DNA of 64,000 nucleotides from Lutimonas halocynthiae. GTDB lineage: Bacteria > Bacteroidota > Bacteroidia > Flavobacteriales > Flavobacteriaceae. Under the pieces are notes generated by a model. The model was not told the DNA's origin, did not search any database, and was given only the letters and a program-made list of their open reading frames with translations. Position numbers and translations under genes: made by a program. The stretch is taken from positions 186,001 through 250,000 of the forward strand of contig NZ_JAUFQO010000001.1 of assembly GCF_030409835.1 (NCBI RefSeq), written 5' to 3'. Below are positions 52,083 to 64,000 of this stretch, in pieces; position 1 is the first letter of the stretch, and each line of letters opens with the position of its first letter.

Positions 52083-52107
52083 ATTGTAACTCTAAATACT
52101 TGAAAAA

Positions 52108-52743
52108 ATGATCAGAGAAAAGCTGGAAGAATACTACAACGTTGTTTTTGAAAAAGAATTACTTGATGAAATCTCAAAAGTAGGTACATATAAAAAAGTA
52201 AAAGAACATGATTTGTTACTTGATATTGGTGACACCTTTCATCATATCCCTTTAATTCTAACCGGGGCGATAAAAATTAGCCGTGAAACTAAAAACGGTG
52301 ATGAAATTGTACTTTATTTTCTGGAAAGAGGAGACACTTGTACCATCACTTTCGGTAGTGGAATCCAAAGTCACAAAAGCAAGGTTCGCGGGATTGCTGA
52401 GAAAGATTCTGAACTTATATTTATTCCGGTTGAAAAACTCGAAGAATGGATGATCAAATACGCTTCCTGGAGAAGTTTTGTAATTGATAGTTACGATATA
52501 CGACTTAATGAAATGCTGGAAGCAATTGACACCCTGGCTTTTTTGAAAATGGATGAGCGATTATACAAATACCTCATCGATAAGGTTCAGATTATGAGAA
52601 GTACTGAATTAAATACTACACATCAGGAAATTGCTGTAGATTTAAATACTTCTCGTGTTGTGGTTTCTAGATTGCTCAAACAACTTGAGAATGAAGGTAA
52701 GATTAAGTTGTTCAGAAACAAAATTGAAATTTTAGATTTTTAG
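52108..52743 (+). CDS. Crp/Fnr-family transcriptional regulator
   Basis: The 211-residue protein has an N-terminal cyclic-nucleotide-like sensor domain (about residues 15-125, with LILTGAIKISRETKNGDEIVLYFLERG). A C-terminal winged helix at about 155-200 carries the recognition helix region HQEIAVDLNTSRVVVSRLLK. There is only one Cys (Cys90 region, GDTCTIT), so an FNR-type 4Fe-4S cluster is excluded; the effector is unknown. The typical Arg-Val-Val-Val-Ser-Arg helix is close to the CRP/FNR recognition helix. A GTAAC-N4-GTTAC operator begins 1 bp after its stop codon, and two more copies occur ahead of mobA and the Fe-S/NrfD gene, so this protein is the obvious candidate to bind them. Confidence 0.92.
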   Translation: MIREKLEEYYNVVFEKELLDEISKVGTYKKVKEHDLLLDIGDTFHHIPLILTGAIKISRETKNGDEIVLYFLERGDTCTITFGSGIQSHKSKVRGIAEKDSELIFIPVEKLEEWMIKYASWRSFVIDSYDIRLNEMLEAIDTLAFLKMDERLYKYLIDKVQIMRSTELNTTHQEIAVDLNTSRVVVSRLLKQLENEGKIKLFRNKIEILDF

Positions 52744-52744
52744 T

Positions 52745-52758
52745 GTAACAATTGTTAC
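52745..52758 (+). promoter_or_regulatory. Predicted Crp/Fnr operator 1 (GTAACAATTGTTAC)
   Basis: A 14-bp perfect palindrome, 62 bp upstream of the YeeE-type gene. The -7 element TATTTTTA (52780-52787) starts 21 bp after it. The centre is at about -42, the class II activator position. No -33 element is needed. Confidence 0.6.
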
Positions 52759-52779
52759 CTGATTCGAAGGCTAATAAAT

Positions 52780-52787
52780 TATTTTTA
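52780..52787 (+). promoter_or_regulatory. -7 element of the yeeE promoter
   Basis: TATTTTTA, one mismatch to TAnnTTTG. It starts 21 bp after operator 1. The gap to the first ATG is 19 bp. Confidence 0.5.
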
Positions 52788-52806
52788 CAAATAAGAAAGA
52801 AATATT

Positions 52807-53364
52807 ATGGATTTTATATTACAACCTTGGGCTTGGTATGTCGCAGGACCCTTAATCGCCTTTTGTATGTTTCTGATGTTTTTCTTTGGAAAGAAATTTG
52901 GCGTATCATCTAATCTTGAGACAGTTTGCGCCATGGGTGGAGCTGGTAAATTAGTGGATTTTTTCAAGTTTGATTGGAGAAAAAACAAATGGAATTTGGT
53001 ATTTGTTGTCGGATTGATCTTTGGAGGATTTATTTCTGATCAGTGGTTAACTCCCGATGACTCCGTTGCCATTAGTGCTGCAACAGTGCAAGATTTAGCT
53101 GAGATTGGAATTGAAAATGCCGGGGCAAGTTATCTTCCAGATGAGATCTTTAGTATGGAAGCCATGCTTTCTGTCAAAGGGTTTTTAATACTCCTTATTG
53201 CTGGTGTTCTAGTTGGATTCGGATCAAGGTATGCGGGGGGTTGTACCTCCGGACACGGGATTGTTGGTTTAAGCAGTTTGTCGATGGAATCATTTATCGC
53301 TGTTGGAGGATTTTTTATTGGAGGCCTAATCATGACCTGGCTCATTTTACCTTATATTTTTTAA
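52807..53364 (+). CDS. YeeE/YedE sulfur transporter, first half
   Basis: The 185-residue membrane protein has about five hydrophobic segments and the family hallmark AGGCTSGHGIVGLSS with its conserved Cys, plus a second Cys in LETVCAMGG. YeeE/YedE proteins (such as TsuA) move thiosulfate or other sulfur compounds across the inner membrane through cysteine-lined steps. The usual single-chain protein is split here into two genes, this one and the next, 9 bp apart. It is the first gene after the Crp/Fnr regulator and its operator. The exact substrate cannot be read from sequence. Confidence 0.88.
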   Translation: MDFILQPWAWYVAGPLIAFCMFLMFFFGKKFGVSSNLETVCAMGGAGKLVDFFKFDWRKNKWNLVFVVGLIFGGFISDQWLTPDDSVAISAATVQDLAEIGIENAGASYLPDEIFSMEAMLSVKGFLILLIAGVLVGFGSRYAGGCTSGHGIVGLSSLSMESFIAVGGFFIGGLIMTWLILPYIF

Positions 53365-53373
53365 GCTGATCAT

Positions 53374-53787
53374 ATGAAATATATAAAATATTTACTTGTA
53401 GGAATATTATTCGGAATTACGTTGAGTAAGGCTGAAGTAATCTCTTGGTATAGGATTTACGAAATGTTTAAGTTACAATCATTTCACATGTACGGAGTTA
53501 TTGGATCGGCTGTCGTAATAGGCATCGTTTTGATGTATTTATTCAAAACAGAAAAGCTCAAGACACTATACGGGACTCCAATTGTTGTAGAGCCTAAGAA
53601 AAAAGGGATCTCTAGAAACCTTATTGGAGGAATTATTTTTGGCCTGGGTTGGGCACTAGGTGGTTCTTGTCCCGGACCTATGTACATCCTTCTTGGTAAA
53701 GGTGTTGTTGCTATTTTGGTCGTTTTATTTGGCGCCCATCTTGGAGCATTCTTATACCACGCTGTTAAGCATAAAATTCCGCATTGA
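53374..53787 (+). CDS. YeeE/YedE sulfur transporter, second half (DUF6691)
   Basis: The 137-residue membrane protein carries the second conserved motif, LGGSCPGPMYILLGKG, with its Cys in GGSCPG. Together with the preceding gene it completes the two-repeat YeeE fold. The two-gene layout is frequent in proteobacteria and flavobacteria. It may be followed by read-through into moaA, whose start is 87 bp downstream with no terminator between. Confidence 0.88.
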   Translation: MKYIKYLLVGILFGITLSKAEVISWYRIYEMFKLQSFHMYGVIGSAVVIGIVLMYLFKTEKLKTLYGTPIVVEPKKKGISRNLIGGIIFGLGWALGGSCPGPMYILLGKGVVAILVVLFGAHLGAFLYHAVKHKIPH

Positions 53788-53874
53788 TTTATAGCTCCAA
53801 ATTACTTTTAAGACAATCAAGACAGGTATTGCAGTCATTTTCGTAAATTTAACAACAATCTCCTTTATACATAA

Positions 53875-54867
53875 ATGGATAAATTAATTGACAAACACGG
53901 TAGACAGATCAGCTATTTACGTCTTGCGGTAACTGACAGATGTAATTTGCGTTGTCAATATTGTATGCCTGAAAATGGAATTGATATTGTTCACAGAAAT
54001 GAGCTGCTTACGTATAAGGAAATGTATAGAATCACAAGGGTTTTAAGTGAACTTGGCGTTGATAAAGTTCGTCTGACAGGAGGAGAGCCATTTGTGAGAA
54101 AGGATTTTATTAGTTTTTTAGAATCTCTGTCGTTCAATAAAAGCCTTAAAGAGATAAATATCACCACAAATGGCGCCTTAATTTCAAAACATATTGACAA
54201 ACTTGAAGAGATTAAAATCAATGCTGTGAACCTAAGTATTGATAGTCTTGACAGAAAGAAGTTTTTTGAAATTACAAGAAGGGATGTATTCCCTCAGGTT
54301 TTTGAGACCTATCAAGACCTGCTTAAAAGTAATTTAAAGCTTAAACTAAATGTTGTCATACAATCCGGAGTCAACACAGATGAAATCATTGATTTTATTG
54401 AGTTGACCAAAAATGATAAGGTCTCTGTTAGATTCATTGAGGAAATGCCTTTTAACGGCAAAGGTCAAAGACAGGTAAGAGAAGTTTGGAATTACAACAA
54501 GATTCTTAAAACAATCAATTCACATTATTCAGATGTCGAGACATTGATTTCACAGAAATCATCTACTTCAAAGAATTTTAAAATAAATGGTTATAAAGGT
54601 ACATTCGGAATCATCCCTGCCTTTACAAGAACGATTTGTACTGACTGTAATCGGATACGAATTACTGCTACTGGATTATTTAAGAACTGCTTGTTTGATG
54701 ATGGCGTTTTTAACATTAAGAATTTTATCAGAAACGGAGCAAGTGACGACGAACTTAAACAGTTGTTTATTTCAACTGTCCAGCAGAAACCTGAAAATGG
54801 ATTCATCGCTGAGGCGAATCGCAAGAACACAAAAGTTTCAGAGAGTATGTCTACCATTGGTGGTTAA
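53875..54867 (+). CDS. moaA: GTP 3',8-cyclase (molybdopterin synthesis)
   Basis: The 330-residue radical SAM enzyme has the N-terminal cluster motif DRCNLRCQYCMP (CxxxCxxC) and the SAM-binding RLTGGEPFVRKDF. The second 4Fe-4S cluster is at the C-terminus (TICTDCNRIRITATG and FKNCLF), and the chain ends in a Gly-Gly tail (STIGG) needed for activity. With MoaC it makes cyclic pyranopterin from GTP. The next gene starts 8 bp later, so moaA-moeA-moaC are one operon. Confidence 0.96.
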   Translation: MDKLIDKHGRQISYLRLAVTDRCNLRCQYCMPENGIDIVHRNELLTYKEMYRITRVLSELGVDKVRLTGGEPFVRKDFISFLESLSFNKSLKEINITTNGALISKHIDKLEEIKINAVNLSIDSLDRKKFFEITRRDVFPQVFETYQDLLKSNLKLKLNVVIQSGVNTDEIIDFIELTKNDKVSVRFIEEMPFNGKGQRQVREVWNYNKILKTINSHYSDVETLISQKSSTSKNFKINGYKGTFGIIPAFTRTICTDCNRIRITATGLFKNCLFDDGVFNIKNFIRNGASDDELKQLFISTVQQKPENGFIAEANRKNTKVSESMSTIGG

Positions 54868-54875
54868 TAAAAATT

Positions 54876-56084
54876 ATGAAAAATTCAGAATCTTTTATTT
54901 CAGTTAAAGAAGCAATAGATTTCGTGTTGAACGCTGCAGAATCTTTCGGGACTGAATCTATAGAATTCAATAAGTCTCTTGGAAGAGTGCTAAAAGAAAC
55001 GGTTAAAGCAGATCGCGAAATGCCTCCTTTTGATCGTGTCAGCATGGATGGAATTGCTATCAACTTTGAAGCTTTTCAAACCGGGCTTAGGTCTTATCCA
55101 ATTGAAGCTATACAGGCGGCCGGAAGTGAACAATTAAGCCTCGAGCATAAGGAGCATTGTTTAGAAGCGATGACAGGTGCTATGCTGCCTCAAGGGACGG
55201 ATACAATTATTCCTTATGAACTTATCAATATTGAAAACGGAATAGCACATGTACAAGTAGAAGAAATCAAACATTTTCAAAATATTCACAAAAAGGGATT
55301 AGACCGAAAAAAAGATGCTGTTCTCATTTCAAAAGACACCATAATTACTGCTGCCGAAATAGGTGTATTAGCCACTGTTGGTAAAACAACTATTGAAGTT
55401 GCTAAACTTCCAAAAATAGCCATTGTTTCAACCGGTGACGAATTAGTGGATGTTTCTGAAATTCCCGCAGCTTATCAAATACGAAAAAGTAATGTGCATA
55501 CATTGGCTGCTGCATTGCGTGGTTTTGAATTAAACCCTGATTTATTTCATATCACTGACGACAAAAATAAATTGCGAGAAAAAATAAAATCTTTACTTGA
55601 GAACTATGATGTTTTGATGTTCAGTGGTGCCGTTAGCAAAGGAAAATTTGATTATTTGCCAGAAATTTTACAGGAACTTGCTGTGCAAAAATTATTTCAT
55701 AAAGTAAAGCAAAGACCAGGTAAACCCTTTTGGTTTGGGAAGAAAGAACAAACAACAATTTTTGCATTTCCCGGCAATCCGGTATCTACCTTTGTCAGTT
55801 GCCTGAAATATTTTATTCCATGGCTGCTTAAAAGTTTAGAATTAGGTCCAGAAAAAAAGGACTTCGCAGTGTTAGCGGAAGATTTTTATTTCAAACCTGA
55901 GCTGACTTATTTTTTACAAGTTAAAATTAAAAATGAAGCTGGTGTTTTATCTGCATTTCCAATTGCAGGAAACGGATCAGGTGATTTGGCCAATTTAACT
56001 CAAAATGATGCTTTTATGGAGCTGCCTTCTGATAGAACAGATTTTAAAAAGGGGGAAGCTTTTCCAATCATAAAATACCGTTAA
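54876..56084 (+). CDS. moeA: Molybdopterin molybdotransferase
   Basis: The 402-residue protein has the MoeA domain order: N-terminal linker (PFDRVSMDGIAINF), the molybdopterin-binding domain with IAIVSTGDELV and MFSGAVSKGKFDYLPE, and the C-terminal beta-barrel. The usual SGGVSxGxxD turn is SGAVSKGKFD here; the catalytic Asp remains. MoeA inserts molybdate into the pterin dithiolene. It lies 8 bp after moaA. Confidence 0.94.
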   Translation: MKNSESFISVKEAIDFVLNAAESFGTESIEFNKSLGRVLKETVKADREMPPFDRVSMDGIAINFEAFQTGLRSYPIEAIQAAGSEQLSLEHKEHCLEAMTGAMLPQGTDTIIPYELINIENGIAHVQVEEIKHFQNIHKKGLDRKKDAVLISKDTIITAAEIGVLATVGKTTIEVAKLPKIAIVSTGDELVDVSEIPAAYQIRKSNVHTLAAALRGFELNPDLFHITDDKNKLREKIKSLLENYDVLMFSGAVSKGKFDYLPEILQELAVQKLFHKVKQRPGKPFWFGKKEQTTIFAFPGNPVSTFVSCLKYFIPWLLKSLELGPEKKDFAVLAEDFYFKPELTYFLQVKIKNEAGVLSAFPIAGNGSGDLANLTQNDAFMELPSDRTDFKKGEAFPIIKYR

Positions 56085-56097
56085 TAAAATACTTGAT

Positions 56098-56571
56098 TTG
56101 AGTAAATTTTCACATATAGACGACGACAACAAGCCTAAAATGGTCAATGTTATTGACAAAACAATAACTAAAAGAAGGGCATTGGCCCAGGCTAATATGT
56201 TTTTAGGGAGAGAAATTATTTCTTTATTGAATGGCAAAGAAATAAACACAAAAAAGGGGCCCGTTTTCCAAACGGCAGTGATTGCAGGAATTCAAGCGGT
56301 TAAAAAAACTGCTGAGCTGATACCAATGTGTCATCCACTCCCTCTCGATGGTATTACAATTGATATTGCTTTTTTAGATGAAGAGAACATCAATATTAGC
56401 TGCGCAGTTGAAATGGAAGGGAAAACTGGGATAGAAATGGAAGCTTTAACCGGCGCCAGCGTCGCAGCACTTACTGTTTATGATATGTGTAAAGCTATCT
56501 CTCAGAAAATGATCATCAAAGAAGTCAAGCTATTAGAAAAAACTGGTGGAAAAAGTGACATAAAGAAATAA
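56098..56571 (+). CDS. moaC: Cyclic pyranopterin monophosphate synthase
   Basis: The 157-residue protein has the signature MCHPLPLDGITID and the C-terminal motif EALTGASVAALTVYDMCKA, both typical of MoaC. The gene uses a TTG start (56098), as the conserved SKFSHIDDDNKPKMVNV follows directly. It is 13 bp after moeA and followed by a terminator. Confidence 0.95.
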   Translation: MSKFSHIDDDNKPKMVNVIDKTITKRRALAQANMFLGREIISLLNGKEINTKKGPVFQTAVIAGIQAVKKTAELIPMCHPLPLDGITIDIAFLDEENINISCAVEMEGKTGIEMEALTGASVAALTVYDMCKAISQKMIIKEVKLLEKTGGKSDIKK

Positions 56572-56590
56572 AGTTTCTTTCAAAAGAATC

Positions 56591-56623
56591 AAAGCCAATG
56601 AAAATTAATTCATTGGCTTTTTT
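56591..56623 (+). terminator. Terminator of the moaA-moeA-moaC operon
   Basis: A 12-bp stem AAAGCCAATGAA (56591-56602) with TTCATTGGCTTT (56609-56620) has a 6-nt loop and is followed by Ts. It lies 20 bp past the moaC stop. Confidence 0.85.
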
Positions 56624-56643
56624 CATGGTCATTAGAGGTTTAA

Positions 56644-57183
56644 TTATGGATCTACAGTTATTGTAGCTTCGTATTGAACCTCAACAACGAAATCCATTGG
56701 TCCGTTATCACATAATGCATTTCCTTCATACTTCACCATTATTGTGTTTCCAGCTTTCAAGGCGTTTCCAATTCTGTTCAATTCTGCTACTTCCTTAATT
56801 TCATAAACAGTTCCATTATCGGCTTCTGTTTTAACTGTAAACGCATTCGTCAAGGCCACTTGATTGTGTGCACTAAAAGAGGCGTCTACCTGACCATTCT
56901 CGTCACCTACAAAGTTGATAATCTTATAACTCAATTTGGTAAGCTTGACCGACTTTATTTTATTAAGATGGTTTTTAGTATCGCTATTTTCGATGCTAAT
57001 GGATGCATCGCTTGAAAAAGAAACCCATTCTCCATCAGTCTGATCAACCTTAACCGGGATATTTTCAGTTTCCTTAAGACTTACATCAAAGTCTGGTAGA
57101 AGTCCGACTACGTCATCTTCATCGCAGGATGAAAAACTAAGGCAGGCGCAACATATGCAAAGAGCTATTAATCTTCTTTTCAT
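56644..57183 (-). CDS. Lipoprotein of unknown function
   Basis: The 179-residue protein has a lipoprotein signal with an unusual Cys-rich stretch (ALCICCACLSFSSC) and a beta-rich body (about 35-179). It is on the minus strand, nested between moaC and mobA, so its orientation is opposite to all its Moco neighbours. A structured, gene-free leader of about 150 nt may precede it. No family is recognised. It could be an independent insertion or a small secreted component. Confidence 0.65.
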   Translation of the reverse strand: MKRRLIALCICCACLSFSSCDEDDVVGLLPDFDVSLKETENIPVKVDQTDGEWVSFSSDASISIENSDTKNHLNKIKSVKLTKLSYKIINFVGDENGQVDASFSAHNQVALTNAFTVKTEADNGTVYEIKEVAELNRIGNALKAGNTIMVKYEGNALCDNGPMDFVVEVQYEATITVDP

Positions 57184-57438
57184 GATTTTAAATTTTAAGT
57201 TATATTAATTTGGAATGTTGAATATTTTAATGACTTTCTAATGAAATACCTATTTCATAGATTGACCATTTTTATTCTCGAGAAACTATGGCTGGCTTTA
57301 GGCAAATGAAACCAGCCCAATACAGGATCGAATGTATGTAACAAAGATTTTTAATGAAGATTTCATGTCGAGGGAGACTTGGTTTTATAATTCCTTGTTT
57401 GAACACATTAAGTTACAAAAAAATAACCAAATTGTTGC
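57184..57438. other. Gene-free structured region between the lipoprotein gene and mobA
   Basis: No ORF of note. Two hairpins are visible: GGCTGG...CCAGCC (about 57289-57318, stem extendable by a TTT/AAA pair with one bulge) and ATACA/TGTAT (about 57320-57337). On the minus strand an AATCTTTG (57349-57342, one mismatch to the -7 consensus) could start a leader through both hairpins to the lipoprotein gene. The remainder, up to mobA at 57552, holds operator 2 and its -7 element. Confidence 0.35.
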
Positions 57439-57452
57439 GTAACTATGGTCAC
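57439..57452 (+). promoter_or_regulatory. Predicted Crp/Fnr operator 2 (GTAACTATGGTCAC)
   Basis: One mismatch to the GTAAC-N4-GTTAC palindrome, 100 bp upstream of mobA. The -7 element TAAATTTT starts exactly 21 bp after it, the same spacing as the other two copies. Confidence 0.5.
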
Positions 57453-57473
57453 TAAAACGGAAAGATTCATCCA

Positions 57474-57481
57474 TAAATTTT
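57474..57481 (+). promoter_or_regulatory. -7 element of the mobA promoter
   Basis: TAAATTTT, one mismatch to TAnnTTTG, 21 bp after operator 2. Predicted start near 57487 gives a 65-nt leader. Confidence 0.45.
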
Positions 57482-57551
57482 CGGAATGCGCATTATTAAG
57501 TATTTTAGCAATTGTAAGCAATTCCAATTCGTAAATTCAAGATTTAATATC

Positions 57552-58667
57552 ATGAAAAAACATACTAAACACGCCAAACTAACGAGGCGAAATTTTGGTC
57601 ACATGGCTCCTTTCGAAATCTCAATCCTGGGCACCAAATGTTCAATTATTAAGGAATTGGTAAAAGAAGTATCCAAAAAAATCAACTCTAGATATAAGTT
57701 GGCATATGCTGATGCCTCTCATAACAAAGACACTGTTGCACCGAATTATGATGAATATACATTTCACCATTCTGGTAGTTTAAAAGTAGACCAGGCCTAC
57801 CAAATGAACCCAAATACAGATCCTATATTGTTCAGCGATTACGATCTATTGTTTATAAATGGCAATCATTATCAAGGTAAAAAACAAATACTCATCCTGG
57901 ATGACGAAAAAGAAGCTTCAGTATTAAAGAGAATAGAGCAACTTGGTGACATCGCTTTTCTGCTAAATTTAAATCACAGATCAGAAATTTTTCCTTTTCT
58001 CATTGAAAAGAATCCTAAAATATCAGATTTAGAAGTTTATTCTATTCACGATATTGAACAGATAAGCGATCATATTTTACAGTTGATAGAACATAACAGA
58101 CCTCCACTTCAAGGCTTAGTACTCGCAGGAGGGAAAAGCATTAGAATGGGTACCGACAAAGGTCTATTAGATTATTTCGGCAAGTCACAAAGAGTCTATT
58201 CGATCGAAATGTTAGAGCGATTAAATTTAAAGACATTTTTATCGGTTCGAAAAGAACAAAATCTCGATCAAAAAAATGTGATTGAGGATGCGTTTTTAGG
58301 GCTTGGCCCTTTTGGAGCTATTTGTTCTGCATTCCAATACAATCCCAATGTGGCCTGGCTCGTAATTGCTACTGATCTTCCATTTGTAGATGAGAAATTG
58401 ATTCGACGCTTATTGGAAGAAAGGGATCCAAGCAAAGTAGCCACTGCAATCAAAGGTAAAGGGAAAAAATTCCCTGAACCGCTTATCACAATTTGGGAAC
58501 CCAAGGCCTATCCGATTATGCTGCAATTCTTGGCAAAAGGGGTTTCGTGCCCAAGAAAGGTTTTGATAAATACTGATGTCCTTCACGTTGAAGTGGAAGA
58601 TGAATTTATTCAAAATGTCAATACTCCTGAAGAATATTCGGCCGTAAAAAAAGAATTGCACAAATAG
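57552..58667 (+). CDS. mobA: Molybdenum cofactor guanylyltransferase with degenerate MobB-like N-terminus
   Basis: I start at ATG 57552 (MKKHTKHAKLTRRNFGHMAP). The 371-residue protein has a C-terminal MobA domain from about residue 185 (GLVLAGGKSIRMGTDKGLL, VLVIATDLPFVDE-like VIATDLPFVDE). It also has an N-terminal domain resembling MobB whose P-loop is degenerate (GTKCSIIKEL at 27-36 instead of GxxGxGKT), so that half is unlikely to bind GTP. MobA adds GMP to make the guanine dinucleotide (MGD) form of the cofactor, used by DMSO-reductase-type enzymes. It overlaps a GTG by one base with the moeB frame and precedes it closely. Confidence 0.9.
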   Translation: MKKHTKHAKLTRRNFGHMAPFEISILGTKCSIIKELVKEVSKKINSRYKLAYADASHNKDTVAPNYDEYTFHHSGSLKVDQAYQMNPNTDPILFSDYDLLFINGNHYQGKKQILILDDEKEASVLKRIEQLGDIAFLLNLNHRSEIFPFLIEKNPKISDLEVYSIHDIEQISDHILQLIEHNRPPLQGLVLAGGKSIRMGTDKGLLDYFGKSQRVYSIEMLERLNLKTFLSVRKEQNLDQKNVIEDAFLGLGPFGAICSAFQYNPNVAWLVIATDLPFVDEKLIRRLLEERDPSKVATAIKGKGKKFPEPLITIWEPKAYPIMLQFLAKGVSCPRKVLINTDVLHVEVEDEFIQNVNTPEEYSAVKKELHK

Positions 58668-58678
58668 TGTTTAAGAAA

Positions 58679-59755
58679 ATGGATAAGGAGAAAATGTTCA
58701 TAAGGCAAACCACCCTGCCAGAGGTTGGTTTAAAGGGTCAGGAAAAATTATCAAATGCTAAAATTGCTATTATTGGCTGCGGTGGTCTTGGTAGTGCTGC
58801 TGCTGTATATCTTGCAGCAACAGGAATTGGCCAGATTCACTTGATTGACTATGACAAGATTGATGTCAGTAATTTACATCGACAGGTATTTTATAAATTA
58901 GAGGAGGTAGGGAAATCGAAAGCCAAATCACTTGCCAAGCATATAGAAAGTATTAGTTCTTTTGTCTCTGTCAGCATACATGAAGAACCCATCAACAAAT
59001 ATAACATCACTGAAGAATTAAAGAATTATTCGATTATTCTCGATTGTACCGATAGCCTTCCAACGAAATATTTATTGAATGACTATTGTGTTCTAAACAA
59101 TAAAACATTGGTTTATGGTTCACTTTATAAACATGACGGATACGTAGCCGTTTTTAATGCAGATTCGAAAGATGGCCGAACGGCCCATCTTAGGGATGCC
59201 TTTCCGGAAATGTCTAAAAAGCACGTTCCCAATTGTTCTGAAATTGGGACACTAAATCCAATTGTTGGTATAATCGGATTAATGCAGGCCAATGAGGTGA
59301 TCAAAATAATAACAGAAACAGGGACCCTGCTCATCAACAAAATTCTCATTTATAATTCAATGGATAATTCCCAGTTTATTATGAAGCTAAAATCAGCTTT
59401 TTCTAAAGATAGGGTCGCAGCAATTTATAATAATGAAAATTATTTTGATGCAAGATGTGAGTTGCAGGATGAGGGTTTACTCATAGAAGCAAATCAATTG
59501 AGAAATAAATTACCGGATGGAAATATCAAAATTATTTCTGTCATTGCCGACACAAATTTTCCGATACCATTCTCCGTTGATCTTAGCATGCCAAATTCAA
59601 AATTTGATGCGGCAAAATTAGCGCCTTTTATGAGCAATGAAATTGTGGTTGTTTGTCAAAAAGGCATTTCAAGTTATGCCACAACTAAAAGAATAAGAAA
59701 AGAGTTTTCCGGGCTAAAGGTATTTAGCCTCAAGAACGGTCTTGAGAATTACTAA
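58679..59755 (+). CDS. moeB: MoeB/ThiF-type E1 enzyme fused to a rhodanese-like domain
   Basis: The start is uncertain: GTG 58667 overlaps the mobA stop, ATG 58679 (MDKEKMFIRQ) is preferred. The 358-residue protein has the adenylation fold with IIGCGGLGSAAAVYLA, LIDYDKIDVSNLHRQ, DCTDSLPTKYLLND and Cys186 (VPNCSEIGTLNP). The zinc-binding CxxC pairs of E. coli MoeB are missing (HLRDAFPEMS stands where CYRCLFP would be). A C-terminal rhodanese-like domain with Cys326 (VVVCQKGISSYAT) follows, like eukaryotic MOCS3. It would activate and possibly load sulfur on MoaD. The mobA stop is 11 bp before the start. Confidence 0.9.
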   Translation: MDKEKMFIRQTTLPEVGLKGQEKLSNAKIAIIGCGGLGSAAAVYLAATGIGQIHLIDYDKIDVSNLHRQVFYKLEEVGKSKAKSLAKHIESISSFVSVSIHEEPINKYNITEELKNYSIILDCTDSLPTKYLLNDYCVLNNKTLVYGSLYKHDGYVAVFNADSKDGRTAHLRDAFPEMSKKHVPNCSEIGTLNPIVGIIGLMQANEVIKIITETGTLLINKILIYNSMDNSQFIMKLKSAFSKDRVAAIYNNENYFDARCELQDEGLLIEANQLRNKLPDGNIKIISVIADTNFPIPFSVDLSMPNSKFDAAKLAPFMSNEIVVVCQKGISSYATTKRIRKEFSGLKVFSLKNGLENY

Positions 59756-59786
59756 TCATACTGAGCAAATAATAATATTCAAGTCT

Positions 59787-61556
59787 ATGTCAAAGCCTCT
59801 TAGCTTTTATCAAGAAGAAAAATCCAAGTTTGAGCAGCAGCGAGATCAGCTTCGTAAGAAATCTAATCTTTACAGCATTTTAAGAATAATTTTATTTCTT
59901 ATTGTCTTACCGGCCGCTTATTTGAGTTATGATGAAACACGCTTATTTCTCGGAGTTCTGGCAACTGGATTTACCGGATTTATGATCATGGTTATTAAAC
60001 ATCAAAGTCTGCGAACCCAAAGAATCTTATCGGAACACCTTATTGCTATCAATTCAATTGAAATTGACGCATTAAACGGCAAATACGATTCCCTACCTAC
60101 TGGTTCTGAATTTACAGACCCGCATCATTATTTCAGTAATGATGTTGATCTATTCGGAAATGGTTCATTCTTTCAATACATCAATAGAACAGCTACCTCT
60201 TCAGGTCGCAGATCATTAGCTAGAATTTTGACAAGTAATGATATCGAAGATATAGCAGCGAAGCAGGAAGTCATAAAAGAACTATCAGAAATGCCTCAGT
60301 GGCGGCAACGCTATTTAGCTTTGGCAAAAATGGTTAAAACAGAAACTGATCATAAGATCATTGTTTCATGGATTCACAACTACAAGTCATTTCTTCCTTC
60401 ATTGATGAAATACTTACCCATGCTTTTTAGCCTTATATCCTTGGTATTACTATTACTGGTTTCATTGGGTCAAATTTCTTTCTTTTTATTGGCTGGTTGG
60501 TTTTTTGTAGGATTGCTAATCACTTTGCCTTATTTCAAAAGAGTGAACCATTTATATCTAGAAGCTGGTCAGATCAAACACACTTTTAAGCAGTATCATA
60601 CCTTGTTAAATGAAATTGAAAACTTAAAATTAAAAGCTTCTTTTGCCATCAAACAGCAAGATAAAATTCAATCTTCAAACAAAAAGGCATCACTTATTTT
60701 TAAAGAATTCTCTAAAATTCTAGATGCCTTTGATCAAAGAAATAACATGCTTTTTGGAATTCTTGGCAATGGATTATTCCTATGGGACCTTCGCCAAACT
60801 TACAAAATAGACAAGTGGATATCTGTCTATCAAAACCAGGTTGAAAACTGGTTCGATGTGATTTCCTATTTCGATGCCCAAATTTCTTTATCAAATTATG
60901 CTTATAACCATACCGATCATCATTTCCCTGAAATAAAATTAAAAGAATATGGGATCAGTGCTGAAATGCTGGGTCATCCTTTACTTGATAAAGAAGTGCG
61001 AATTGATAATGATTTTTCTATTGCGGAAAAAGATTTTCAAATCATAACCGGAGCCAATATGGCTGGTAAAAGTACTTTCCTGCGAACCATATCCTTAAGT
61101 CTAATCATGTCTAATTCAGGCTTACCTGTATGCGCCAAGAAAATGAGTTATTCCCCAATTAAACTAATTACTAGCATGAGAACGACTGATTCTTTAGCGG
61201 AAGAAAGCTCTTATTTTTATGCAGAAATTGTCAGATTGCGCTTCATTGTTGACCAAATGAAGGATGATAAATATTTTATTATTCTAGACGAGATCTTAAA
61301 AGGGACAAACAGTAAAGACAAGGCCATTGGCTCTAAAAAGTTTGTTGAAAAACTGGTTAAATCAGGTTCGACAGGAATCATCGCAACGCATGATTTAAGC
61401 TTGTGTGATATTGAACAAGAATATCCTCAGATTCACAACAAATATTTTGATGCTAAAATCAATAATGAAGAATTGGTTTTTGATTATAAATTAAAAGCTG
61501 GTATCTGCACGAATATGAATGCTTCTTTTCTCTTAAAGAAAATGGAAATAATTTGA
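59787..61556 (+). CDS. Membrane-anchored MutS-like ATPase
   Basis: The 589-residue protein starts at ATG 59787 (MSKPLSFYQEEKSKFEQQ). It has two N-terminal transmembrane helices (about 29-46 and 52-70), another membrane pair near 206-250, and a C-terminal MutS ATPase domain with Walker A GANMAGKSTFLRT, SYFYAEIVRLRFI, DEILKGTNSKDKAIGSKK (Walker B and the MutS signature) and the switch ATHDLSLCDIE. No mismatch-recognition or Smr domain is seen. Proteins like this are widespread in Bacteroidota but their function is unclear. Here it is 31 bp after moeB in the Moco operon, so it may take part in cofactor or oxidoreductase assembly, which is inference. Confidence 0.82.
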   Translation: MSKPLSFYQEEKSKFEQQRDQLRKKSNLYSILRIILFLIVLPAAYLSYDETRLFLGVLATGFTGFMIMVIKHQSLRTQRILSEHLIAINSIEIDALNGKYDSLPTGSEFTDPHHYFSNDVDLFGNGSFFQYINRTATSSGRRSLARILTSNDIEDIAAKQEVIKELSEMPQWRQRYLALAKMVKTETDHKIIVSWIHNYKSFLPSLMKYLPMLFSLISLVLLLLVSLGQISFFLLAGWFFVGLLITLPYFKRVNHLYLEAGQIKHTFKQYHTLLNEIENLKLKASFAIKQQDKIQSSNKKASLIFKEFSKILDAFDQRNNMLFGILGNGLFLWDLRQTYKIDKWISVYQNQVENWFDVISYFDAQISLSNYAYNHTDHHFPEIKLKEYGISAEMLGHPLLDKEVRIDNDFSIAEKDFQIITGANMAGKSTFLRTISLSLIMSNSGLPVCAKKMSYSPIKLITSMRTTDSLAEESSYFYAEIVRLRFIVDQMKDDKYFIILDEILKGTNSKDKAIGSKKFVEKLVKSGSTGIIATHDLSLCDIEQEYPQIHNKYFDAKINNEELVFDYKLKAGICTNMNASFLLKKMEII

Positions 61557-61982
61557 TCATGGGTGAGAATTGACCCAAATCTCTCCATCTTCAAAAAACT
61601 CCTTTTTCCAGATTGGCACCGTCTCTTTTAAAGTATCGATAGCATATTGACATGCCTTAAATGCGGCCTCTCTGTGTGCAGAAGAGACTGCAATGATTAC
61701 CGGAACCTCGCCAATTCCCAATGCCCCTGTTGCGTGGTGTATGGCAATTTTATGAATGCTAAACTTTTCAATGGCTTTACTAGCGATAACCTTCATTTCT
61801 TTTATGGCCATAGGTTCATAGGCTGAGAATTCCAACTTAAAAACCTCTTTGTTTTTTGTGCTGTTTCTCACGGTTCCTACAAACAAAGAAATACCTCCGC
61901 AGCTATCGTCTGAAACAAAGTCGTAGCATTCTTGAAGAGATAACTCACCTTCTTTCAGTTTTATATAAATTGAATTCTCCAT
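61557..61982 (-). CDS. moaE: Molybdopterin synthase catalytic subunit
   Basis: The 141-residue protein has the MoaE motifs: SCGGISLFVGTVR near the N-terminus, KIAIHHATGALGIGEVPVII in the middle, SSAHREAAFKACQYAIDTLK, and the catalytic-loop Lys in VPIWKKEFFEDGEIWV. With MoaD it inserts the two dithiolene sulfurs. Its stop touches the stop of the converging MutS-like gene. It is downstream of moaD on the minus strand, 8 bp apart. Confidence 0.95.
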   Translation of the reverse strand: MENSIYIKLKEGELSLQECYDFVSDDSCGGISLFVGTVRNSTKNKEVFKLEFSAYEPMAIKEMKVIASKAIEKFSIHKIAIHHATGALGIGEVPVIIAVSSAHREAAFKACQYAIDTLKETVPIWKKEFFEDGEIWVNSHP

Positions 61983-61990
61983 ATATTAGA

Positions 61991-62233
61991 TTAACCACCA
62001 CTAACCGGCGGAATAACCGCAACAGTGTCATTTTCAACTATGATCAAGTCTTCTTCAGCATAGGTTTCATTCACAGCAATCGAGAATGAATCCATTTGAG
62101 AAAATAAGGGATATTTATCTTGTAAAACTTTTCTAAAAGCACTTACTTTCAGGTCTTCATTAACTTCCAAAAAGGTGCTAGTTTCACTGGCTAAATCTTT
62201 CGCCATCCCAAAAAAAAGAATCTTAAGCTTCAT
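61991..62233 (-). CDS. moaD: Molybdopterin synthase sulfur carrier subunit
   Basis: The 80-residue ubiquitin-fold protein has the family start MKLKILFFGMAKDLA, and ends with VIPPVSGG, the C-terminal Gly-Gly that carries the thiocarboxylate. It is activated by the MoeB-like protein in the same region. It is first in the moaD-moaE pair. A TATTTTTG -7 element (62254-62247) lies 14 bp before the ATG. Confidence 0.95.
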   Translation of the reverse strand: MKLKILFFGMAKDLASETSTFLEVNEDLKVSAFRKVLQDKYPLFSQMDSFSIAVNETYAEEDLIIVENDTVAVIPPVSGG

Positions 62234-62246
62234 AATTGAATTTTAT

Positions 62247-62254
62247 CAAAAATA
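62247..62254 (-). promoter_or_regulatory. -7 element of the moaD-moaE promoter
   Basis: TATTTTTG on the minus strand (62254-62247), perfect TAnnTTTG. It has no convincing -33 element and is not at the correct distance from operator 3 to be activated by it. Confidence 0.5.
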
Positions 62255-62322
62255 ACCAATACCTTTAAGAGGAAAAAATTAATTTAAGGCAGATTATTCT
62301 TTAGTCAAACCATTCTCTTTAA

Positions 62323-62336
62323 GTAACTAATGTTAC
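62323..62336 (+). promoter_or_regulatory. Predicted Crp/Fnr operator 3 (GTAACTAATGTTAC)
   Basis: A perfect GTAAC-N4-GTTAC inverted repeat. A consensus -7 element (TAAATTTG, 62358-62365) starts exactly 21 bp later, giving a centre at about -42. It is in the divergent region between moaD and the Fe-S/NrfD gene. Confidence 0.62.
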
Positions 62337-62357
62337 AACTTAAAACCTGCATTTGAC

Positions 62358-62365
62358 TAAATTTG
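62358..62365 (+). promoter_or_regulatory. -7 element of the Fe-S/NrfD gene
   Basis: TAAATTTG, perfect match, 21 bp after operator 3. Predicted start near 62371, with a leader of about 90 nt that contains a 6-bp inverted repeat (AAGTTC, 62393-62398; GAACTT, 62401-62406). Confidence 0.6.
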
Positions 62366-62462: not shown

Positions 62463-64000
62463 ATGAAATACGGATTTATTATTGACAACAGAAAATGTAT
62501 CGGTTGTCATGCGTGTACTACCGCTTGTAAAAGTGAACACGACGTACCCATAGGGGTCAACAGGACCTATGTAAAGCAAGTTGAAAAGGGAGAATTCCCA
62601 AATACCAGAAGGATTTTCTCAGTGATGAGATGTAATCACTGTACCGATGCTCCATGTGTAGAAATATGCCCTGTTGAGGCGCTGCACACCAGAGAAGATG
62701 GGATTGTAGATTTTGATAATAATCGATGTATTGGATGCAAGTCATGTATGCAAGCATGCCCCTATGATGCACTTTATATTGATCCTGACAATAAAACCGC
62801 AGCAAAATGTAATTATTGCGCTCACAGAGTTGAAGTGGGTAGAGCTCCTGCTTGTGTAGATGTCTGTCCTGAGCACGCCATTATTGCTGGAGACATGGAT
62901 AATCCAGAAACGGAGATTTCTATGCTGCTAGCCAGAGAACAAGTCATGGTTAGAAAACCTGAAAAAGGAACGAAACCAAACTTATTTTATATCGATGGTG
63001 ATTACCAATCTTTGGATCCTGATACTACGGATAGTTCTGGTCCTGGATTATGGAACTCTCAAGCAAGGGGAGTTGGGCATTATGCAAAAGCCGCTGAAAA
63101 AATGATGCATACTAATGACGATATTAATTTATTACAGATGAGTATCGATAATGACCTGGAAGCAGCCTACCATAAGAATGAAACAGAGAATCCTAATTAT
63201 ATTGATGTACTTAATGGCAAAGCCCGAAGAGTATATGACACACCTGATAAGGGAATTTTATGGGGTTGGGAAGTATCTGCCTATGTCACGACCAAGGCAA
63301 TTGCTGCCGGTGCCTTTTTAATTCCTCTTTTAGCCATAGTCCTTGGATATGAAGTTTCTAATACGATCAAATTGGTATCTGTAGGAATATCCTTATCCTT
63401 TTTAGGACTTACAGGACTGTTTTTAGTCATGGACCTTGACCGCCCGGATAGATTTTTAAACGTCTTATTAAGACCTCAATGGAATTCATGGCTTGTTAAA
63501 GGCGGGTATACCATATCAATCTTTGGCTTACTCATGACCATATGGGGAGTCGCTACATTTTTTGAATGGGACATCCCTGAAAATTTATTGTTAGGCGTAA
63601 CTGCTGTATTTGGTGTGATCCTGGCTATCTACACTGCATTTTTATTTGCTCAAGCAAAGGGAAGAGATTTTTGGCAAAGCCCTACCTTACCATTGCATAT
63701 GTTGGTTCATAGCGTTCTTGCCGGTGCTGCTGTTTTTGCTGTCTTGGCCGTCGTAATGCAACCTGAAAGCTGGATGGAAATTTTAGGCGCTGTAATTTCT
63801 ATTTCGCTAATTGTTAATTTGTTTACACTCATTTCAGAGCTGACCATTACACATCCAACAAAAGCAGCGAAAAAAGTGGTTCATATGATCCTAAAAGGAA
63901 GGTATCAAGGCTTGTTTTGGTTAGGAACCATAATTCTAGGAAACGTTTTACCATTGATTTTAATTCAATTTTTACCTGGTCAATTATCTTTGGCAGTGGC
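62463..64000 (+). CDS. Four-cluster ferredoxin fused to NrfD/PsrC-type membrane anchor, 3' truncated
   Basis: The frame from ATG 62463 (MKYGFIIDNRKCIGCHACTT) stays open to the right edge, 512 residues so far. Residues 1-136 hold sixteen cysteines in four 4Fe-4S sets (12/15/18/22, 57/60/65/69, 89/92/95/99, 116/119/131/135). A hydrophilic linker follows (about 140-262), then a membrane domain from about 265 with at least six helices, NrfD/PsrC-like. The two parts are usually separate subunits (PsrB and PsrC type) of a molybdopterin oxidoreductase; here they are one chain. It would pass electrons between the quinone pool and a catalytic Moco subunit encoded outside the window. Operator 3 and a perfect -7 element precede it. 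Whether the substrate is a sulfur compound is inferred from the YeeE neighbours. Confidence 0.9.
   Translation, partial: MKYGFIIDNRKCIGCHACTTACKSEHDVPIGVNRTYVKQVEKGEFPNTRRIFSVMRCNHCTDAPCVEICPVEALHTREDGIVDFDNNRCIGCKSCMQACPYDALYIDPDNKTAAKCNYCAHRVEVGRAPACVDVCPEHAIIAGDMDNPETEISMLLAREQVMVRKPEKGTKPNLFYIDGDYQSLDPDTTDSSGPGLWNSQARGVGHYAKAAEKMMHTNDDINLLQMSIDNDLEAAYHKNETENPNYIDVLNGKARRVYDTPDKGILWGWEVSAYVTTKAIAAGAFLIPLLAIVLGYEVSNTIKLVSVGISLSFLGLTGLFLVMDLDRPDRFLNVLLRPQWNSWLVKGGYTISIFGLLMTIWGVATFFEWDIPENLLLGVTAVFGVILAIYTAFLFAQAKGRDFWQSPTLPLHMLVHSVLAGAAVFAVLAVVMQPESWMEILGAVISISLIVNLFTLISELTITHPTKAAKKVVHMILKGRYQGLFWLGTIILGNVLPLILIQFLPGQLSLAV

Follow-up and report, generated by a model that had tools for sequence, protein, structure and literature searches.

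Regulator gene and operators at the locus

The window analyzed here is a stretch of 64,000 base pairs (bp) from the 3.99-Mb genome of Lutimonas halocynthiae (G000:C1:186001-250000), and its final part contains a gene for a Crp/Fnr-family regulator together with three GTAAC-N4-GTTAC inverted repeats that precede genes for sulfur metabolism and for molybdenum cofactor (MoCo) supply. In the original prediction, made from the letters of the window alone, these repeats were proposed to be the operators of a sulfur/molybdenum regulon. All three boxes were found at 52745, 57439 and 62323 with the mismatch grades that had been claimed, and each is followed by a -7 element at a spacing of exactly 21 bp. 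The stop codon of the regulator gene ends at 52743, leaving a single base before the first operator, as had been noted. The -7 elements all contain TAnnTTT, but the full TAnnTTTG motif is present only at 62358, the other two ending in A and T. Among the named loci, the closest regulators belong to a Flavobacteriaceae metagenome-assembled genome (L067, 96% identity), a Flavobacteriales metagenome-assembled genome (L068, 94%) and Lutimonas saemankumensis (L069, 92%). The regulator gene and the control elements are as follows.

52108..52743, + strand: Crp/Fnr-family regulator, 211 amino acids; PF13545 and PF00027 above cut-off; single Cys (Cys78); recognition helix SRVVVSR
52745..52758, + strand: operator 1, GTAACAATTGTTAC, perfect GTAAC-N4-GTTAC
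52780..52787, + strand: -7 element TATTTTTA, 21 bp past operator 1
57439..57452, + strand: operator 2, GTAACTATGGTCAC, one mismatch; the weakest of the three, not conserved
57474..57481, + strand: -7 element TAAATTTT, 21 bp past operator 2
62323..62336, + strand: operator 3, GTAACTAATGTTAC, perfect; conserved in L067, L069 and genomes G025 and G253
62358..62365, + strand: -7 element TAAATTTG, 21 bp past operator 3

Distribution of the box in the genome

A composite of GTAAC-N4-GTTAC, N21 and TAnnTTT was used for the first genome scan; N20-22 was allowed in a scan of 11 genomes, and TAnnTTTG was required in a class-wide scan. The control was a reversed box in the L. halocynthiae genome and CAATG-N4-CATTG beside the regulators. 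Perfect boxes occur five times in the L. halocynthiae genome, against 12 for the reversed control, and three of the five lie inside 19 kb at this locus. Perfect composites occur exactly three times, all within this cluster. The third is located beyond the window at C1:257774, where TAACTTTG follows at exactly 21 bp and a metallo-beta-lactamase/rhodanese (persulfide dioxygenase-like) gene starts 65 bp from the start of the box. It was found by a genome scan with the rule of box, 21 bp and -7 element that the original prediction had asked for beforehand; because this site lies outside the window and was invisible when the rule was proposed, it constitutes a passed out-of-sample test. The fourth perfect box, C12:252923, precedes a small rhodanese gene, and its -7 element is GACATTTG, with one mismatch. 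The fifth, C16:376294, falls within a frame named ftsZ-like by eye and was taken as a chance occurrence. With N20-22, the reversed control gives no composite in this genome. A simple model gives a probability of about 7e-7 that three boxes share one of 16 distances to TAnnTTT, and the exact and one-mismatch controls agree with the earlier view that the identical spacing is hard to explain by chance.

Conservation in related genomes

Regarding conservation, 109 loci with a match to the regulator yielded 105 distinct regulators after repeats of identical proteins were dropped, and an identity of 64%, rather than a tree, was used to split them into orthologue and paralogue groups. With one mismatch at most, a box was found no more than 300 bp 3' of the regulator gene in 28 of the 48 relatives that are at least 64% identical and in 25 of the 57 others, with control counts of 0 and 1, respectively. 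TAnnTTT follows within 50 bp in 47 of these 53 boxed regulators; in 46 the gap is 21 bp (31) or 22 bp (15), and any other gap occurs at most twice. Upstream of the regulator, a box is found in 7 of the 57 more distant relatives (control 0). The 80 named loci contain 61 composites with at most one mismatch (control 0), and for 60 of them the longest open reading frame behind the composite could be read: a YeeE half in 30, a persulfide dioxygenase-rhodanese in 12, an Fe-S/NrfD protein in 6, SulP2 in 4 and none of these in 8. These eight consist of the regulator itself in Flavobacterium loci L110, L111, L112 and L117, a TauE/SafE-like protein in L107 and L109, and a protein with a sub-threshold Usp match in L115 and L123, Pfam having been run for the latter two kinds on the L107 and L115 proteins only.

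The 11 whole genomes with the closest regulators were searched genome-wide and gave 25 composites in 10 genomes (control 0). Seventeen of the targets are sulfur genes, namely YeeE (5), persulfide dioxygenase (4), rhodanese (5) and Fe-S/NrfD (3); the rest are TolC-like (3, one Pfam-scanned and the others assigned by resemblance), OsmC-like (1), a pyridine nucleotide-disulfide oxidoreductase (1), a multihaem cytochrome (1) and two unidentified genes. The class-wide survey of 149 genomes detected 36 TAnnTTTG composites in 26 of them, against 8 control matches; 33 of the 36 have N22, the other three N21. The original prediction would have been contradicted by the same pattern at a similar background frequency, and the controls were far lower in both surveys (0 against 25; 8 against 36). 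Of the class-wide sites, 30 were read as loci: 12 precede homologues of the sulfur proteins of the cluster (2 in L. halocynthiae itself), one precedes a thioredoxin-like gene, and the remaining 17 precede TolC-like, TauE/SafE-like (by resemblance), hcp-like or unrelated genes. Eight of these sites touch open frames longer than 200 codons, and chance probably explains some of the 30. Of the 34 sites outside L. halocynthiae, eight have a regulator homologue no more than 5 kb away, and a homologue is present in 23 of the 26 genomes with a site against 74 of the 123 without (Fisher p 0.004, relatedness ignored).

Promoter geometry and proposed mechanism

The sigma-A TAnnTTTG box of Flavobacterium psychrophilum spans -12 to -5, according to a section of PMC9723704. 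On this scale, the operator centre would lie at -40.5 with N21 and at -41.5 with the commoner N22, so that the earlier estimate of a centre near -42 keeps its class II place and is refined to these values. The sequence has the class II Crp/Fnr promoter geometry, with an operator near -41.5 over the -35/-33 place, the position being borrowed from F. psychrophilum. In addition, GTAAC-N4-GTTAC contains GTA-N8-TAC; in canonical NtcA class II promoters, this box stands at about -41.5 and is followed by a -10 box, as described in part of PMC3898017.

The protein encoded at 52108-52743 would activate a regulon by which reduced sulfur (thiosulfate and persulfide sulfur) is imported and oxidized. Its dimer would bind GTAAC-N4-GTTAC centred at about -40.5 to -41.5, take the place of the -33 element and, as a class II activator, contact RNA polymerase at the TAnnTTTG promoter. 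The predicted targets are the split YeeE operon with MoCo genes, the Fe-S/NrfD and molybdoenzyme operon, the persulfide dioxygenase-rhodanese gene and, elsewhere, the small rhodanese gene, with the mobA operon as a possible addition. As a whole, this explanation, a Crp/Fnr class II activator of a sulfur regulon acting via an NtcA-type box, is regarded as probable.

The regulator protein

The regulator belongs to the Crp/Fnr superfamily, scoring 37.9 with PF00027 (cut-off 27.5) and 43.2 with PF13545 (cut-off 27), and its AlphaFold model (mean pLDDT 84.7, pTM 0.63) retrieved Crp/Fnr proteins in a fold search. With the NCBIfam equivalog models, it scored 49.5 bits for NtcA (TIGR03697, cut-off 244.95), which is still its best NCBIfam match, and 46.1 bits for CRP, the cyclic AMP receptor (PRK11753, cut-off 266). 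FNR holds its 4Fe-4S cluster by an N-terminal Cys set. This set is absent here, as had been pointed out, and with residue 78 as the only Cys and a score of 19.2 bits for the Fnr model (cut-off 228), an FNR identity with cluster-based oxygen sensing was rejected.

The recognition helix SRVVVSRLL aligns to TRVTVTRLL of NtcA with the common pattern RV-V-[ST]R, and S182, R183, V184, V185, S187 and R188 are invariant across 26 aligned rows. NtcA resembles the present system in its GTA-N8-TAC box near -41.5 and its helix pattern, but the regulator scores far below the NtcA cut-off, its targets are sulfur rather than nitrogen genes, its promoter is of the TAnnTTTG type and there is no evidence for 2-oxoglutarate. 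The regulator would work like NtcA in box and position and is not filed as NtcA. Within the genome, the helix comparison covered two of the six PF13545 matches, the window protein and one paralogue, G000:C8:987161; the two proteins are 56% identical, with near-identical helices and the common core SRVVV-R.

Two further observations concern regulator genes in relatives. The homologue of Algibacter mikhailovii (L142, 10001-10633) has an in-frame stop inside the matched stretch. Many Lutibacter loci (L079-L106, around 11700) carry an additional Crp/Fnr-like gene, 30-35% identical, that separates moaA from the YeeE halves; it was not seen in L067, L069 or L070.

Alternative explanations

The main rival is repression, in which a box over the -33 contact would block RNA polymerase until a sulfur signal frees it, like BigR at Acinetobacter yeeE-yedE-pdo2. 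In favor of it, a functionally similar operon of A. baumannii is under the BigR repressor, as reported in part of PMC7315123, and NtcA itself acts as a repressor at some promoters, where its boxes are downstream of -35, according to part of PMC3898017. A repressor would tolerate variable positions, whereas the strict 21 or 22 bp at the class II place suits an activator; because of this strict distance, activation is the best reading, and repression is considered unlikely. The lack of a -33 element points the same way, with TTTG found 17-23 bp before the TA in 0 of 102 distinct perfect composites (loci L007 and up). The earlier statement that no normal -33 TTTG is present is accordingly true, yet it follows in large part from the box, which covers most of the positions examined for TTTG; the count mainly tells that the box occupies the -33 place.

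A second rival assigns the boxes mainly to the paralogue G000:C8:987161 or another Crp/Fnr protein and gives the adjacent regulator some other role. The paralogue shares the helix core SRVVV-R, and in other genera, members of the wider clade have boxes beside them too (25/57). The box within 300 bp behind the orthologous gene in 28 of 48 relatives argues against this, as does the finding of no box beside the paralogue in this genome at the stringency of the genome-wide box count, and this rival is likewise given a small share of belief. Chance in AT-rich intergenic DNA draws on the two-mismatch box, which is hardly enriched in the window, and on the two-mismatch composite, which is rarer than its control, but the exact and one-mismatch sites (25 against 0; 28 and 25 against 0 and 1; 36 against 8) and the out-of-window site C1:257774, which obeys the same rule, leave it highly improbable, and for the cluster as a whole it was rejected by the box, composite, spacing and genome controls.

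Several points weigh against the activator explanation. The named loci were selected via the regulator, which favors neighboring targets, and the genomes are interrelated, so that site counts are not independent. No box lies within 300 bp downstream of 20 of the 48 close and 32 of the 57 more distant regulators; 7 of the 53 boxed regulators lack TAnnTTT at 21 or 22 bp, and a box upstream of the regulator is found in 1 of the 48 close relatives, against 2 for the control. Three genomes of the class have a composite and no regulator homologue at E 1e-20. The paralogue could bind the same boxes, and a missing -33 TTTG does not by itself show activation. At two mismatches, the window has 23 boxes against 15.8 expected, a number reached in 6 of 100 shuffles, and the genome has 24 composites against 64 for the reversed control. 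As two-mismatch composites are rarer than the control, loose matches carry no weight and are uninformative, and only exact or one-mismatch sites were relied on; no autoregulation was claimed from a two-mismatch box at 52086, directly before the regulator.

The mobA site at 57439 also belongs here. The original prediction counted three targets, of which the split YeeE and Fe-S/NrfD promoters are supported, but direct control of the mobA operon is no more than possible. When the regions upstream of mobA were compared, neither the box of operator 2 nor its -7 element was kept in L067 or L069, and no box with up to two mismatches was found in the 350 bp before mobA in any of the 23 named loci with this gene. 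In L070 and the Lutibacter loci, mobA closely follows moaC. The site was downgraded from full membership of the regulon, and chance may still account for this single site.

Putative signal and known systems

Cys78 is conserved in all 109 relative rows, including the paralogous clade. In the AlphaFold model, it is located in a loop between strands 66-73 and 94-97 (residues 81-85 have pLDDT below 50), and by alignment this loop falls at the effector-binding region of NtcA. PDB 3dv8 has a Cys at the matching position as well, so that Cys78 may be structural. Cys78 is the best candidate for a sensor, and a sulfur signal would possibly act through it. A Crp-like protein of A. baumannii is persulfidated, with unknown effect, as stated in part of PMC7315123. 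A class-wide Bacteroidota regulon is proposed tentatively, as an idea somewhat more apt to fail than to hold: its Crp/Fnr activator would detect sulfane sulfur directly through the conserved Cys in the Crp/NtcA effector loop and would drive -33-less promoters via an NtcA-type box. If true, it would provide a Crp/Fnr counterpart of BigR and FisR for persulfide control.

BigR belongs to the ArsR family and represses, in contrast to the present Crp/Fnr protein, which is most likely an activator. The BigR/PigS system (yeeE-yedE-pdo2, PmpAB) resembles the present one in combining a split YeeE importer with a persulfide dioxygenase, as described in parts of PMC7315123 and PMC11582611. FisR, a sigma-54 activator of sqr-pdo, shares persulfide-linked activation of sulfide oxidation genes (parts of PMC7315123 and PMC9774590) but belongs to another protein family and works with another sigma factor. 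HcpR of Porphyromonas gingivalis (structure 9day), from the same phylum, shares the Crp/Fnr fold and ranks 35 in the fold search, but has a different role. This role is in nitrosative stress. Sulfane-sulfur control is known for ArsR, CsoR-like, sigma-54, MarR and OxyR proteins of other phyla. FisR and BigR are described as such regulators of other phyla in a portion of PMC7315123, and no Crp/Fnr sensor is named in the available text of the sulfane-sulfur review PMC9774590, a text search for Fnr and Bacteroid included. In the open-access papers searched, no description was found of this operator or of a Crp/Fnr sulfur regulator in Bacteroidota. For a large group of bacteria from marine habitats and sediments, the analysis offers a testable set of operator, regulator and targets, and the defined promoter geometry would make class II activation predictable in Bacteroidota, where -33/-7 promoters strain the rules of E. 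coli.

Genes behind the operators

The genes that follow the three operators are listed below.

52807..53364, + strand: YeeE/YedE half, PmpA-like, C-terminal half of a sulfur importer (PF04143 profile positions 251-309)
53374..53787, + strand: YeeE/YedE half, PmpB-like, N-terminal half (PF04143 profile positions 13-103, DUF6691)
53875..54867, + strand: moaA
54876..56084, + strand: moeA
56098..56571, + strand: moaC
57486..58667, + strand: mobA (MobA/MobB-like); likely true start at codon 22 (57549), where the ATG lines up with L067 and L069
58667..59755, + strand: moeB-like (PF00899)
59742..61556, + strand: MutS-like ATPase, later in the mobA operon (PF00488)
62463..64000, + strand, continuing past the window: fused 4Fe-4S/NrfD subunit, 538 amino acids, followed by a molybdopterin oxidoreductase of 967 amino acids

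Split PmpA/PmpB halves are described in part of PMC11582611. The genes moaA-moeA-moaC are located 3' of the YeeE promoter. The ATPase at 59742-61556 in the mobA-moeB operon contains MutS domain V, and its MutS_III match is below cut-off. Downstream of the Fe-S/NrfD gene are the genes for the 967-amino-acid oxidoreductase, a TlpA-like thioredoxin, two SulP transporters, the persulfide dioxygenase-rhodanese, a rhodanese lipoprotein and a Tll0287-like protein. The oxidoreductase resembles the dimethyl sulfoxide (DMSO) reductase family, with thiosulfate reductase at the top of its solved-structure matches; in NCBIfam, the DMSO/selenate and PhsA models come first, far below cut-off. Neither the Fe-S/NrfD nor the molybdopterin subunit has a twin-arginine signal at its N-terminus (judged by eye), and the putative molybdoenzyme, which may run in either direction, was therefore named SoeABC/Psr-like.

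From these gene identities, the proposed sulfur/molybdenum regulon holds for its sulfur genes, but the molybdenum genes come second, as operon partners. The predicted regulon is sulfur first, comprising the split YeeE importer, the SoeABC/Psr-like molybdoenzyme, the persulfide dioxygenase and the rhodaneses, and it extends past the window to the molybdoenzyme operon, the persulfide dioxygenase-rhodanese gene and the separate small rhodanese gene.

A sulfide:quinone oxidoreductase gene and other sites

A type III sulfide:quinone oxidoreductase (SQR) gene (NF049943, 637 bits, cut-off 525) lies about 2.2 kb from the paralogous regulator on G000:C8. Before it (L202 1390-1475; G000:C8, just before 990004) is the one-mismatch box GTTACATAAGTTAC, and 42 bp past this box is ATGACTTAAGTCAC, followed by TATATTTG at exactly 22 bp. 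The second SQR box of G025 and G253 is ATGATTTAAATCAC, an FNR-like TGAT-N4-ATCA that is also 22 bp before TATCTTTG (counted by eye). Of 11 genomes searched, 9 have the SQR gene, and 7 of these have a box with at most one mismatch in the 200 bp preceding it; these boxes are not 21 or 22 bp from TAnnTTT. The arrangement suggests joint control of SQR by a sulfur regulator and an FNR-type regulator, and type III SQR is probably also a member of the regulon.

As putative members of the regulon, genes for TolC-family outer membrane proteins recur behind the composite, in L147, L149 and L150 and, by resemblance, in L179, L183 and L193 (Pfam on L147 only). In G366 (L173), a composite precedes an hcp-like (Prismane) gene, and the regulator was not found in this genome at E 1e-20; this is perhaps a site of an HcpR-type protein.

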